From Puniceicoccales bacterium Verruco_01 (GTDB taxonomy: Bacteria > Verrucomicrobiota > Verrucomicrobiia > Opitutales > Oceanipulchritudinaceae), in assembly GCA_001604565.1 (NCBI GenBank), contig LVBV01000031.1, positions 62,001-126,000 on the forward strand: a stretch of 64,000 nucleotides of DNA, in the 5' to 3' direction. Both the position numbers and the translations under genes were made by a program. The notes below the pieces were generated by a model, which had not been told where the DNA came from, did not search any database, and saw only the letters and a program-made list of their open reading frames with translations. Below are positions 12,593 through 52,159 of the stretch, one piece after another. The stretch's first letter is position 1. Each line of letters opens with the position of its first letter.

Positions 12593-13008
12593 TGTTGGAG
12601 ATTGCTAGTCACCTTTCGGCAACGGTTTACAGAAAAGAGAACGCGCGCCGCACGTGGGCGGACGCGCATTTCCAGAACCTTAATTCTTGTCGCTTGCCCC
12701 TGTAAACGCCAGAAGAAAAGTGATGGCCCGGAGGCACCAAACCACTGATCGCCTGTCATTTGTGGACAATAAAAAACGGGGCGGTTTCCCGCCCCGCTTT
12801 CCGTGCCCCTGTCTGAGATTGAAATGGCTCTGGTGAGTGCTTGAGCACAAGCTCCCATCGGATGGCGGTCCTTTTTTCGGGTGCGAATACAAATCAAGAC
12901 ATGTGTCTTGTCACACGCCTTTCTGATTCTCAAATGCCGGACCGTCCCAAACAGTCGATGGTATGAAAGTCCCTAGCGGACTATTTCATCCACGTCTGTA
13001 GCGCGGGC
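12593..13008. other. Intergenic region upstream of hppA
   Basis: About 416 bases without a recognisable gene. It holds the hppA leader, the minus-strand terminator at 12771-12796 and an inverted repeat CAAGACATGTGTCTTG at 12895-12910. The rest probably forms the 3' untranslated part of the small transcript from 13009-13116. I saw no convincing reading frame on either strand. Confidence 0.6.
12771..12796 (-). terminator. Terminator downstream of lasso-like precursor 1
   Basis: On the minus strand, stem CGGGGCGG/CCGCCCCG with an AAA-type loop, followed by a U-run (AAAAAA on plus at 12771-12776). A 26-base stretch covering hairpin and A-run is identical to the terminator at 13265-13292, so the precursor gene is bracketed by two copies of the same terminator in direct orientation. 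Confidence 0.85.
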
Positions 13009-13116
13009 CTAGGATTCCTCTGATGCAAAGTCAGTTCCCGCGCCGCCATTGCCCCGGGTTTCATTTCCCATATCCAACTTCAAAAGTACGGGAGTCTGCC
13101 AGATTGTTTTGTCCAT
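13009..13116 (-). CDS. Lasso-peptide-like precursor peptide 1 (RiPP, orphan)
   Basis: A 35-residue peptide. The leader begins MDKTIWQTPVLLKLD and ends T-R; the predicted core is GNGGAGTDFASEES. Features seen: W-x-x-P-x-L like the Y-x-x-P-x-L leader motif bound by lasso RRE proteins, Thr at -2, Gly at core position 1, Asp8 placed to close an 8-residue macrolactam, and a C-terminal Ser as in paeninodin-type peptides. From the Trp to core Asp8 it aligns without gaps with the peptide at 50378-50479. A good ribosome site (TGGAGA, about 9 bases before the ATG), a promoter at 13205-13233 and a terminator at 12771-12796 make it a self-contained unit. No lasso B or C enzyme is nearby. Being a RiPP is inference from pattern. 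Confidence 0.68.
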   Translation of the reverse strand: MDKTIWQTPVLLKLDMGNETRGNGGAGTDFASEES

Positions 13117-13204: not shown

Positions 13205-13233
13205 ATTATGCAAAAGTCGAAATTCCTTGTCAT
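13205..13233 (-). promoter_or_regulatory. Sigma-70-like promoter of lasso-like precursor 1
   Basis: Minus strand: -35 ATGACA (13233-13228), a 17-base spacer, and -10 CATAAT (13210-13205), each matching consensus at 5 of 6 positions. The predicted transcript starts near 13198 and leaves a leader of about 80 bases. GACTTTTGC (13218-13210) immediately precedes and overlaps the -10 and recurs at the same distance upstream of the second precursor. Confidence 0.6.
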
Positions 13234-13264: not shown

Positions 13265-13292
13265 AAAAAAACGGGGCGGTTTCCCGCCCCGT
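13265..13292 (-). terminator. Terminator of the ECF sigma operon
   Basis: Minus-strand hairpin ACGGGGCGG/CCGCCCCGT followed by a U-run (seven A on plus at 13265-13271). It lies 47 bases after the stop of the 115-residue membrane protein and just before the precursor promoter, so it isolates the two transcription units. Confidence 0.88.
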
Positions 13293-48237: not shown

Positions 48238-49464
48238 GTGCGCGGAGCTTTTCCGCGCGCCTTCGTGCGCTCATCGCCGGTGAACACCTTCAGGGAAATC
48301 CTTCCGCCCACGCCCCACTCCGTTTACACGCTGAAACGGCGCTGGCTCGGCACGAAGGTTTACTGGATCCGCCAGATACTGGGATGGGGAATGGTGCCTG
48401 CGACGCAGCTCGTCGTCTTCCTGATTTTGCCCGACGATTGCGTGACCCTGCCCGAAAAGAGCCTCTTTCTTGTGTTTCTGGCCCTTGAAGGGATCTTCTT
48501 CTCCCATCTGCTGCGCATCGTGTACCTGCGTTGCCGGGACAGGGGCGCAGGCTGGAAGAAACTGCTTACGGTGACCGCCGCGAGCTGTTACTTCGCCGCA
48601 GTCGGCATGACGGCAACCACCTACGCCATCGTGATTCTCGGCAATCCGGAAGACCCTGCGAAATGGGATCTTCAGTCCGAGAGCGGCATCCCGGACTTCA
48701 TCAATTTCAGCATCGGCTGCTGGATTTCCCTTCTCTTCTGGTCGGGGTGCTATTTTGCCACCCTAGCCTTCCGCCAGTACCGGCAAAGCTCGTACAGGCT
48801 CCTGCAGATGGATGCGGCGCTCAAGGAGGCAAAACTGCGGGCCCTGCGGGAACAGATGAACCCGCACTTCCTCTTCAACAGCCTCAACACGATCCGGGCG
48901 ATGATTCCGCGCGAACTGACGGCTCCGCGCGACGCGGTGACGAACCTCGCAGACTTCCTGCGCTCGTCGCTCACAAGCGACAACACGCCGACGATTCCCC
49001 TCGCCGACGAACTCGAAGTGGTACGCAACTATCTCTCCATCGAGAAACTCCGGCTGGAGGAACGCCTCCGGGTGGACATGGAGATCGACCCCGCCGCGAC
49101 AAACTGGCCGATCCCGCCGTTCCTCCTGCAGACGGTGGTGGAAAACGCCGTCAAGTACGGCGTGGCGCGCAACGAAATCGGCGGGCCCATCCACATCCGC
49201 GCGACGATCCGGGAAAGCTTCCTGCGTCTGACCGTGATCAACCACGGCACGATCGGGAAGGATTCGGAATCCACCCGGACGGGCATACGCAACTCCAAGG
49301 ACAGGCTCGCCCTGCTGTACGGGCCCTCCGCGAGCCTTGCGATGGAACAATCCGCCCCCGGCGAGGTGACGACCTCCATCATTCTGCCCCATTCCTCCGC
49401 CGAAGAAAGTGACGGACAACCACTTCCCCTTCCCTGCAATGACAATCCGGACTGTGATCGTTGA
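48238..49464 (+). CDS. LytS/YehU-type sensor histidine kinase
   Basis: About 408 residues. The N-terminal half contains four transmembrane helices (about 52-66, 76-94, 110-134 and 158-178) with no extracellular sensor domain. The kinase half has the His_kinase (pfam06580) motif EQMNPHFLFNSLNTIR, phosphoacceptor His210, and an ATP-binding domain with LQTVVENAVKYGV (N-box) and GIRNSKDRL. The start is a GTG at 48238; GTG 48280 is possible. Its last 26 bases overlap the LytTR regulator, so the two form a classic two-component pair. Confidence 0.9.
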   Translation: MRGAFPRAFVRSSPVNTFREILPPTPHSVYTLKRRWLGTKVYWIRQILGWGMVPATQLVVFLILPDDCVTLPEKSLFLVFLALEGIFFSHLLRIVYLRCRDRGAGWKKLLTVTAASCYFAAVGMTATTYAIVILGNPEDPAKWDLQSESGIPDFINFSIGCWISLLFWSGCYFATLAFRQYRQSSYRLLQMDAALKEAKLRALREQMNPHFLFNSLNTIRAMIPRELTAPRDAVTNLADFLRSSLTSDNTPTIPLADELEVVRNYLSIEKLRLEERLRVDMEIDPAATNWPIPPFLLQTVVENAVKYGVARNEIGGPIHIRATIRESFLRLTVINHGTIGKDSESTRTGIRNSKDRLALLYGPSASLAMEQSAPGEVTTSIILPHSSAEESDGQPLPLPCNDNPDCDR

Positions 49465-50188
49465 CGACGAGAGACTGGCGCGCGAAGAACTGCGCGGGCT
49501 GCTGGCCGCTCACGAATACGTGGACATCCGCGGCGAGGCGGACAGCCCCAGAACCGCGCTCGCGCTCGTCCGCGAGATAAAGCCCGACCTGATCTTTCTG
49601 GACATCGAGATGCCGGGGATGAATGGCTTCGACTTTCTGGACGCCCTGCCGCCTCCTCACCCGTGCATCATCTTCGTCACCGCGTACGACGCCTTTGCGG
49701 TGCGCGCCTTCGAGGTCAACGCAATGGACTACCTCATGAAACCGGTGCGCCCGGAACGGCTGGGGGCGGCGCTCGACAGGGCGCGGGCCCGTCTTGCCGC
49801 AGCACCGGAAGACGGGGCGGAACCCGACACACCTCCGCAGCAGGAACGGCCCTTCCGCGAGGACGACCGCATCTTTCTGCGCGACGGGGACCGCTGCTGG
49901 TTCATCCCGATCGCGGACCTTCGCCTGCTGGAGGCGGACGGCAACTTCACGCGGCTGCACTTCCGTGGCGACAAGCCGCTCCTCTACCGCACCCTTTTCT
50001 CGCTGGAGAAACGCCTGCCCGAGTCCCTCTTCGTGCGCGCCAACCGCTCGCAGATCGTCAACATCCGGCACATCGTCGGGGTTCATCCGTGGTTCAGCGG
50101 CGGGGTGAAGATCGTTCTGACAGACGGGACCGAAGTGGAATTCTCCCGCAGACAGACGCGTGCGCTCAAGACGCGGACGGGAATCTAA
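49439..50188 (+). CDS. LytTR family response regulator
   Basis: A 249-residue regulator. The receiver is at residues 1-120 with Asp55 in LIFLDIEMPG and Lys in MKPVRPE. The LytTR DNA-binding domain is at about 145-245 (IFLRDGDRCWFIPIADLRLL, EADGNFTRLHF, FVRANRSQIVNIRHI). It is paired with the upstream LytS-type kinase. LytTR regulators bind direct repeats upstream of targets such as cell-wall, competence or bacteriocin genes. The small lasso-like precursor lies 190 bases downstream on the opposite strand. Confidence 0.94.
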   Translation: MTIRTVIVDDERLAREELRGLLAAHEYVDIRGEADSPRTALALVREIKPDLIFLDIEMPGMNGFDFLDALPPPHPCIIFVTAYDAFAVRAFEVNAMDYLMKPVRPERLGAALDRARARLAAAPEDGAEPDTPPQQERPFREDDRIFLRDGDRCWFIPIADLRLLEADGNFTRLHFRGDKPLLYRTLFSLEKRLPESLFVRANRSQIVNIRHIVGVHPWFSGGVKIVLTDGTEVEFSRRQTRALKTRTGI

Positions 50189-50377: not shown

Positions 50378-50479
50378 TCAGGAAAAAATGCCGGCGTCTG
50401 TCAAGCCGGGGCCTCCGGCTTCCGTGGCGGACGGGATGTCAAGAATTCGAACCGAAGGGGAATTCCAAGTCTTCTTCAT
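50378..50479 (-). CDS. Lasso-peptide-like precursor peptide 2 (RiPP, orphan)
   Basis: A 33-residue peptide. The leader MKKTWNSPSVRILDIPSATE precedes the predicted core AGGPGLTDAGIFS. Features: MKK-x-W, then W-x-x-P-x-V, L-D-I, Thr at -2, Ala1 and Gly2, Thr7-Asp8 (an 8-residue ring if Ala1 links to Asp8) and a C-terminal Ser. The leader P-S-x-x-x-L-D and an A-G-x-P-G core start resemble paeninodin precursors as I remember them. Trp, Pro, Leu-Asp, Thr and Thr-Asp align gap-free with precursor 1. Ribosome site AAGG precedes the ATG by 6 bases. No maturation genes are adjacent. The function is inferred. Confidence 0.68.
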   Translation of the reverse strand: MKKTWNSPSVRILDIPSATEAGGPGLTDAGIFS

Positions 50480-50571: not shown

Positions 50572-50580
50572 GCAAAAGTC
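50572..50580 (-). promoter_or_regulatory. GACTTTTGC element upstream of precursor 2
   Basis: The nonamer lies 93 bases before the ATG; the same nonamer lies 94 bases before the ATG of precursor 1, where it adjoins the -10 box. T-runs precede it in both. Here TTGACT would make a -35, but no good -10 follows, so the promoter is not certain. Confidence 0.4.
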
Positions 50581-50707: not shown

Positions 50708-52159
50708 CTAATGCCCGTGGCGGCGCGGGGAATGCGGCCTGGCCTCCGCCTCGCAGAGCGGCGCCTTGCGCAGGAGCGCCAGCATCTCGTTCACGCGGAT
50801 GGGCTTGGCGAGGAAGGCGTCCATGCCGGCTTCGATGCAGCGGTCGTGATCGGGCTTTCCGGCGGAGGCGGTGAGAGCCACGATGTAGGGGTGCAGTCCC
50901 CTGGGCGAAAGCATCCGGCGGAGCTTGCGCGTGGCGTCGAGCCCGTCCATCACGGGCATCTGCATGTCCATGAGGACCACGTCGTACTGCTTCTTGTGGA
51001 AGGCGTCCAGAACCTCCTGCCCGTTCTCGGCAAGATCAGGATTGTAGCCCGCCCTCTTGAGCAGGAGCATCGCCACCTTGCTGTTGACGGCGTTGTCCTC
51101 GGCCAGCAGCAGGCGCACCTTCGCCGGGTCGACCGCCTTTTCCGACGCGGGGGCGCATTCCTCGGCCTCGTCGACCGCCCCGTCCAGAGGCGGCGGGAGA
51201 AGTTCCGCCGTGAAGAAGAAGGTGGATCCCTTCCCCGGCTTGCTCTCCACCCACATGCGCCCATTCATGAGCTCGCACAGGCGGCTGGAGATGGCCAGTC
51301 CCAGTCCCGTGCCGCCGTATTTGCGAGTGGTGGAGGCGTCCACCTGCGAGAAGGGCCGGAAGAGCCGGTCCATCCGCTCGCGCGGGATGCCGATGCCCGT
51401 GTCCGTCACCGAGAAAAGCAGCTTCACCTTCAGATCCTCGGCAGAGTCCACCTTCACGTCGATCGTAATGGAGCCCTTTTCGGTGAACTTGATCGCGTTG
51501 CCGACAAGGTTGATCAGGATCTGGCGGATGCGCGTCGGGTCACCCGTCAGCTTTTCCGGCACGTCGCCCGCAACGTTGCCGCGCAGCGTCAGATGCTTGC
51601 TCTCGGCCTTCAGTCGCAAAAGGTTGATCGTCTCGGTCACGAGGGCCCTTGGGTGCATGGCGATGCACTCCAGATCCACACGCCCGGCCTCGATCTTGGA
51701 AAAGTCCAGAATATCGTTGATGAGCTCGATCAGCGTCTCGCCGCTCACGCGGATCGTCTCGATGAAATCGCGCTGCTCGGCAGTGAGGTTCGTGCCCTCC
51801 ATCATCGCCGCCATGCCGAGGACCGCATTCATCGGCGTGCGGATCTCGTGGCTCATGTCCGCGAGGAACTGGCTCTTCACGTGGCTGGCGGATTCCGCCT
51901 TCAGCGCCATGTCATTGGCCTGGAAAATCGCGTTTTCGAGCTGCGCGTTTTCCTCCATCAGCTCCCGGTTGTGTTCCTCCAGACGCGCCACCGTCACCTT
52001 CAGGTCGGCAATCGTCGCCTGCGCGTCCCGATCGTCACAAACCAGCTCCCGCACGGCGCCGGTATGGCACGTAACGGATTCCTCTCCGTACGAAACCTCG
52101 GCCCCGCCGGGAACGGCAGAACGGCGACTTTCATCTGGAATGTTCACGGGGCGAAACAA
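50708..52159 (-). CDS. Hybrid histidine kinase with receiver domain
   Basis: A 483-residue soluble sensor kinase. Residues 45-90 form a coiled coil (ADLKVTVARLEEHNRELMEE). HisKA has His104 in FLADMSHEIRTPMNAVLGM. The HATPase domain shows NLVGNAIKFTEKG, DTGIGIP and GGTGLGLAIS. After a linker a receiver domain follows (LLLAEDNAVNSKVAMLLL, Asp in VVLMDMQMPVMDG). There is no transmembrane helix and no PAS or other input domain beyond the coiled coil, so it probably senses through partner proteins. It is monocistronic. Cognate partners may include the receiver proteins at 44-47 kb. Confidence 0.92.
   Translation of the reverse strand: MFRPVNIPDESRRSAVPGGAEVSYGEESVTCHTGAVRELVCDDRDAQATIADLKVTVARLEEHNRELMEENAQLENAIFQANDMALKAESASHVKSQFLADMSHEIRTPMNAVLGMAAMMEGTNLTAEQRDFIETIRVSGETLIELINDILDFSKIEAGRVDLECIAMHPRALVTETINLLRLKAESKHLTLRGNVAGDVPEKLTGDPTRIRQILINLVGNAIKFTEKGSITIDVKVDSAEDLKVKLLFSVTDTGIGIPRERMDRLFRPFSQVDASTTRKYGGTGLGLAISSRLCELMNGRMWVESKPGKGSTFFFTAELLPPPLDGAVDEAEECAPASEKAVDPAKVRLLLAEDNAVNSKVAMLLLKRAGYNPDLAENGQEVLDAFHKKQYDVVLMDMQMPVMDGLDATRKLRRMLSPRGLHPYIVALTASAGKPDHDRCIEAGMDAFLAKPIRVNEMLALLRKAPLCEAEARPHSPRRHGH

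Follow-up and report, generated by a model that had tools for sequence, protein, structure and literature searches.

The window analysed here, 64 kb long, covers C3:62001-126000 of a draft genome that totals 2.5 Mb in 61 contigs, with a completeness of 94.7%. On its reverse strand lies a short orphan gene for a lasso-type precursor, P2, whose place, strand and sequence are as a first-pass annotation of this DNA had given them. P2 and its surroundings comprise the following features:

48238-49464, forward strand: histidine kinase resembling LytS, with a His_kinase domain; probably the partner of the LytTR regulator
49409-50188, forward strand: LytTR-type response regulator, convergent with P2
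50378-50479, reverse strand: P2, orphan gene for a lasso-type precursor, MKKTWNSPSVRILDIPSATEAGGPGLTDAGIFS, running from its ATG at 50479 to its stop at 50378
50381-50419, reverse strand: predicted P2 core, AGGPGLTDAGIFS, delimited from the Thr(-2) rule and the Asp8 common to P1 and P3 (see below)
50420-50479, reverse strand: P2 leader, MKKTWNSPSVRILDIPSATE, in a register common to 11 other precursors
50456-50467, reverse strand: WxxP motif (WNSP) within the leader
50572-50580, reverse strand: 9-mer GACTTTTGC, 101 nt upstream of the P2 start
50708-52159, reverse strand: hybrid histidine kinase/response regulator, co-directional with P2 and upstream of it

The translation of the P2 frame has 33 residues. 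Its leader carries WxxP, an RRE-binding motif (PMC13381572), and has Thr as its penultimate residue (T19), followed by E20 and by A21, the first residue of the core. This core is predicted to form an Ala1-Asp8 lactam ring with a 5-residue tail ending in Ser, the lactam acid (Asp at core position 8) lying within the range expected for the core Asp/Glu of lasso peptides, i.e., 7-9. The paeninodin model NF033524 is the sole family match of P2, with 18.1 bits (E = 0.0016) against a curated cut-off of 27 bits, and on this score P2 formally falls outside the family. It does carry the leader-motif Trp and the C-terminal Ser that serve as sequence criteria for paeninodins (PMC13381572, PMC9266682). 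The ribosome-binding site of P2 is weak, and a search for a sigma-70-like promoter upstream of the gene returned no candidate. With respect to the neighbouring genes, the LytS/LytTR pair is indeed adjacent to P2, as had been noticed in the first-pass annotation, but it is encoded on the opposite strand and converges on P2. An operon joining the pair to P2 was rejected on this ground, and control of P2 by LytS/LytTR has no support beyond adjacency.

A second orphan precursor, P1, is found in the same window, together with several putative control elements:

12773-12795, reverse strand: terminator-like hairpin downstream of P1; the 26-nt GC-rich hairpin sequence at 12771-12796 is followed by a T run
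13009-13116, reverse strand: P1, orphan precursor, MDKTIWQTPVLLKLDMGNETRGNGGAGTDFASEES, with leader MDKTIWQTPVLLKLDMGNETR and core GNGGAGTDFASEES, in ungapped register with P2
13205-13233, reverse strand: sigma-70-like promoter candidate of P1, ATGACA-17-CATAAT (consensus match only)
13210-13218, reverse strand: 9-mer GACTTTTGC, 102 nt upstream of the P1 start
13266-13291: identical 26-nt GC-rich hairpin upstream of P1, followed by a T run

P1 and P2 align from Trp to the core Asp without a gap, in agreement with the first-pass annotation. The key positions listed there are all present in P2 (W1, P4, L9, D10, T15, A17, T23, and D24, counting Trp as 1), and in P1, where residue 17 is Gly (W1, P4, L9, D10, T15, G17, T23, D24); D10, however, is not a family-wide feature, as it is replaced by Val in P3 and by Ala in P4. 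These two further paralogues came from genome-wide searches, and they make the precursors a dispersed family: P3 (MNTKANWSAPLLKVLVVADETRLTVGPSTDGPELS, contig C61) was found by its spacing pattern, and P4 (MKNGTRQRAEWQSPRLTVLAIQSETKLGGLPTGYDYLFDNDSDS, contig C56) with a profile of P1-P3 (E = 6.6e-4). The core acid is Asp8 in P1, P2, and P3, and Asp9 in P4; in P2 and P3, the core has 13 residues, five of which lie past the ring acid. None of the four reading frames is interrupted, and each retains the W, the P, the L, Thr(-2), the ring Asp, and the C-terminal Ser. Since these conserved residues are written in differing codons (CCT/CCC/CCG for Pro, CTT/TTG/CTC for Leu, ACG/ACC for Thr, TCC/AGC for Ser), the likeness of P1-P4 lies at the protein level. 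More widely, the Trp and Pro of WxxP are invariant across 12 aligned precursors, and a C-terminal Ser is present in every precursor of the set.

As for transcription, the two identical hairpins bracket P1, which thus looks like a transcription unit of its own. An ECF sigma gene is located upstream of P1; this gene, and the hybrid kinase upstream of P2, would fit local control of the precursors, but a terminator-like hairpin sequence separates P1 from the sigma gene, and no other observation speaks for such control. The 9-mer GACTTTTGC occurs just twice in the window, at the positions given above. It is suggestive as a P1/P2 promoter motif, and a lead only, because a shared 9-mer at a similar offset turns up in about 1% of window pairs drawn at random and because GACTTTTGC is absent upstream of P3 and P4. 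No common repeat or mobile element was found at the four precursor loci, considering repeats within each region and a cross-comparison of the upstream 250 nt.

A frame of just 33 codons in a high-GC genome, rich in spurious frames, could in principle look lasso-like by chance. When the W-P-L-T-T-D spacing was searched for as a DNA pattern, the genome contained three perfect matches, namely P1, P2, and P3; allowing one mismatch added just three places over the 2.5 Mb, and a reversed control pattern gave one match in total genome-wide. An independent profile, built from 11 precursors near lasso cyclases (P3 and 10 from other genomes, none from the window), was run over 1,226 stop-to-stop frames of the window and ranked P1 first (17.2 bits) and P2 second (15.2 bits), the third frame scoring 3.0 bits; its top score on 20 random (Markov) 64-kb windows was 8.4 bits. 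In addition, a 12-precursor profile run against 373 genomes of the order matched only two of them, the window genome (G000, four loci) and G010 (one locus). A weak match in a third genome, G013 (E = 0.018), was discarded, as the stretch concerned has no precursor-like frame. The many equally good random matches that the first-pass annotation had named as a refuting outcome were thus searched for and not seen, and its view that the likeness of the two loci is unlikely to be accidental is upheld by the unique spacing and by the top-two ranking with a profile that excludes both P1 and P2. Together with the cognate machinery carried by the genome (see below), these results make a chance frame very improbable.

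The genome encodes one complete paeninodin-type machinery, all on contig C61, hereafter the hub, with the B2, B1, and cyclase genes at about 47-50 kb. It comprises a B2 peptidase (NF033537, 4.5e-21), a PqqD-like RRE protein B1 (PF05402, 1.7e-18), and an Asn-synthetase-like cyclase (NF033535, 6.3e-76, below the full-length cut-off), as well as, around these three, a nucleotidyltransferase (NTP_transf_5, 2.6e-44), an HprK-like kinase, and a divergent ABC transporter. The kinase has an HprK-related match of 3e-6, far under the cut-off; LHAS, GKST, and EDD are seen in its unaligned sequence and are candidates for the H-K-D-D residues expected of a paeninodin-type kinase such as PadeK or ThcoK. B1 matches PbaB1, a paeninodin-type RRE solved with a WxxP leader (9x90), with E = 1.6e-13. 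The residues of the leader cleft are mostly kept or conservatively changed in the hub protein (Y41, M43, V46, I50, L67, Y71, F85, M89, L94), the exceptions being V71, changed to Gly, and both hydrogen-bonding residues, themselves poorly conserved, which differ. In a set of 55 relative genomes, B2 is above cut-off in just G000 and G010, and precursor matches and B2 therefore co-occur in these two genomes. This complete machinery, kinase and nucleotidyltransferase included, and the finding of P3 and P4 bear out the proposal that the precursors form a dispersed family and resemble those of paeninodins. Our preferred reading, to which we assign a probability of roughly 0.8, is that the 33 residues encoded by P2 are the precursor of a short lasso-type peptide akin to paeninodin, that the genome has at least three other such precursors, and that P2 is matured in trans by the C61 hub.

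Linkage to the hub differs among the precursors. P3 and the hub cyclase are separated by about 3 kb, and P3 heads a row consisting of a DUF6916 gene, three tail-collar genes, and a GNAT gene beside the hub, whereas P1 (C3:75.0 kb), P2 (C3:112.4 kb), and P4 (C56:75.4 kb of a 138 kb contig) are located elsewhere. The hub proteins have no homologue in the 64-kb window, which contains no remnant of B1, B2, C or K, and no match in a 15-kb stretch around P4. As far as a draft assembly allows this to be judged, P1, P2, and P4 are therefore orphans; P2 accordingly lacks clustering with B/C genes, a usual though not strictly defining trait of lasso precursors. Such isolation might also be expected if P1, P2, and P4 were relics, left by clusters that have since been lost or have moved or acquired by capture, that are no longer expressed or processed. 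Searches of two same-genus genomes found neither a P2 orthologue nor the hub, the stretches matching the neighbours of P2 being devoid of a precursor; P1 and P4 likewise have no orthologues in these genomes, and a truncated HprK-like fragment next to a precursor-plus-cyclase locus of Bacteroides ihuae is what decaying clusters would be expected to leave. However, the four frames are intact and keep their key residues with differing codons, a candidate promoter precedes P1, which is also flanked on both sides by terminator hairpins, and remnants of the machinery are missing from the window, all of which makes decay an unlikely explanation. The genome holds at least four precursors that apparently share one enzyme set.

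If P2 is a substrate of the hub, we infer a course that leads from its expression to a phosphorylated product with a biological role. P2 would be expressed from its own locus, and its WxxP leader would be bound by the single B1 RRE protein of C61. The terminal Ser of P2 is probably phosphorylated by the HprK-like kinase, as the C-terminal Ser of a paeninodin-type precursor is by the kinase PadeK (PMC9266682). The nucleotidyltransferase, whose homologue in that system has been linked to hexose addition (PMC9266682), may further decorate the phosphorylated Ser. B2 would cut after Thr-Glu, i.e., at the Thr-x site, the Asn-synthetase-like cyclase would join the N-terminal amine of the core (Ala1) to Asp8, and the ABC transporter would export the product.

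Threading of the P2 product is uncertain, since five residues make a very short tail for a lasso that is threaded. The precursors could instead be genuine hub substrates that yield an unthreaded product, either a branched-cyclic macrolactam or a linear phosphorylated peptide resembling the linear polyphosphorylated peptides (LPP). LPP clusters encode an RRE, an HprK-like kinase, an NTP transferase, and an MsbA-like exporter, and their precursors have a YxxP leader (PMC13381572). The first three functions and an exporter are common to these clusters and to the window genome, which also has a related leader motif, and the 13-residue cores of P2 and P3, with just five residues past the ring residue, would suit an unthreaded peptide. 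LPP clusters nonetheless differ in their YxxP leaders, their signal-peptidase-like protease, and their lack of a macrolactam cyclase, whereas the hub has both B2 and a cyclase and its precursors have WxxP leaders; P2 in particular reads WNSP and not YxxPxVLxHQ. As Asp8 (Asp9 in P4) is moreover kept in all four precursors, we regard an unthreaded product as possible but less probable than not.

Related loci occur in other genomes. In G010, which belongs to the same family as the window genome, a single row contains the exporter, kinase, B2, B1, N, and cyclase genes, a DUF6916 gene, three collar genes, the precursor, an unassigned gene, and a GNAT gene. The closest relatives of the hub cyclase are those of Bacteroides ihuae, a Eubacteriales MAG, and a Bacteroidales MAG (56-61% identity), against 42% for the Opitutales enzyme of the same family, which points to horizontal transfer in the history of this cyclase. 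With 100/100 support, the window-genome cyclase falls in one group with four others, each encoded directly next to a precursor. Several of the precursors share the predicted layout of P2, an 8-residue ring closed at Asp followed by a tail of 5-6 residues with Ser at its end. These close relatives form satellites made of a precursor and a cyclase:

L087:12587-14716; L085:6761-9698; L088:9831-11714; L045:45-2556: precursor-plus-cyclase satellites (B. ihuae, Bacteroidales MAG, Eubacteriales MAG)

These satellites share the precursor register of P1-P4 and their cyclases group with that of the hub; they differ in that each carries its own cyclase, the satellites of the window genome being reduced to the precursor. 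No B1 or B2 gene was found beside them in the stretches examined, whereas B. ihuae and the Bacteroidales MAG each possess a fuller hub at another place in the genome. In the Eubacteriales MAG, a 16-kb contig devoid of lasso genes carries a further, isolated precursor, MKKTWETPCFTELDVNEKTENGFRTASDGAILDS (L083, G056:C47:10016-10117). B. ihuae C3 and Proteobacteria MAG C295 were not counted as satellites, since they have full or near-full clusters of their own. The HprK-like fragment mentioned above lies at L087:14909-15061, next to the B. ihuae satellite, and gives the impression of a kinase gene in decay. A hub-and-satellite organization appears reasonably probable, in which one RRE/peptidase/cyclase/kinase/exporter set would serve locally controlled precursors dispersed over the chromosome and allow the production of several differently regulated phosphorylated lasso-type peptides, while the looser precursor-plus-cyclase form of Bacteroidales and Eubacteriales may spread horizontally.

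We take the system to work like a paeninodin-type lasso system. The precursors of that type (PadeA/PadeK, NF033524; pseudomycoidin PsmK/PsmN) have the same WxxP leader, penultimate-leader Thr, and C-terminal Ser, and the machinery is likewise made of a split B1/B2, an HprK-like kinase, a nucleotidyltransferase, and an ABC exporter. In the window genome, by contrast, the precursors are unlinked, an 8-residue ring with a 5-residue tail is predicted, and phage-tail-collar genes accompany the cluster. The host differs as well, being a member of the Verrucomicrobiota, whereas paeninodins have been described as restricted to Bacillota (PMC13381572); paeninodin-like systems are thereby extended to Verrucomicrobiota and other phyla. 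Small natural substrates of this kind, with an 8-residue ring and a 5-residue tail, could be used for probing the minimal length of a lasso.

The proposed relation of P1, P2, and P4 to the C61 hub follows the same logic as that of the prochlorosins of cyanobacteria, in which one LanM serves many unlinked precursors. Prochlorosins are lanthipeptides, with another leader type, another enzyme, and more precursors than the window genome. Their precursor genes are found far from the one modifying enzyme (PMC7268733). For lasso peptides, no report of unlinked precursors was found among the open-access papers searched. Lasso-peptide mining usually seeks precursors beside B and C genes. If dispersed precursors do mature in trans, such peptides are missed by cluster-based searches and by present counts, and a single host would offer a natural test of one RRE/peptidase/cyclase set on several cores.

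Rows of three phage-tail-collar (PF07484) genes were also observed beside lasso hubs of Verrucomicrobiota, Bacteroidota, and Desulfobacterota, an association for which no paper joining lasso peptides and tail-collar genes was found among the open-access ones searched:

L010:4481-7278; L039:6949-10916; L050:5297-7907; L056:15343-18514; L082:10814-12548; L084:3493-5173: tail-collar rows

At the Opitutales loci, the collar genes are accompanied by DUF6916 and a GNAT gene.
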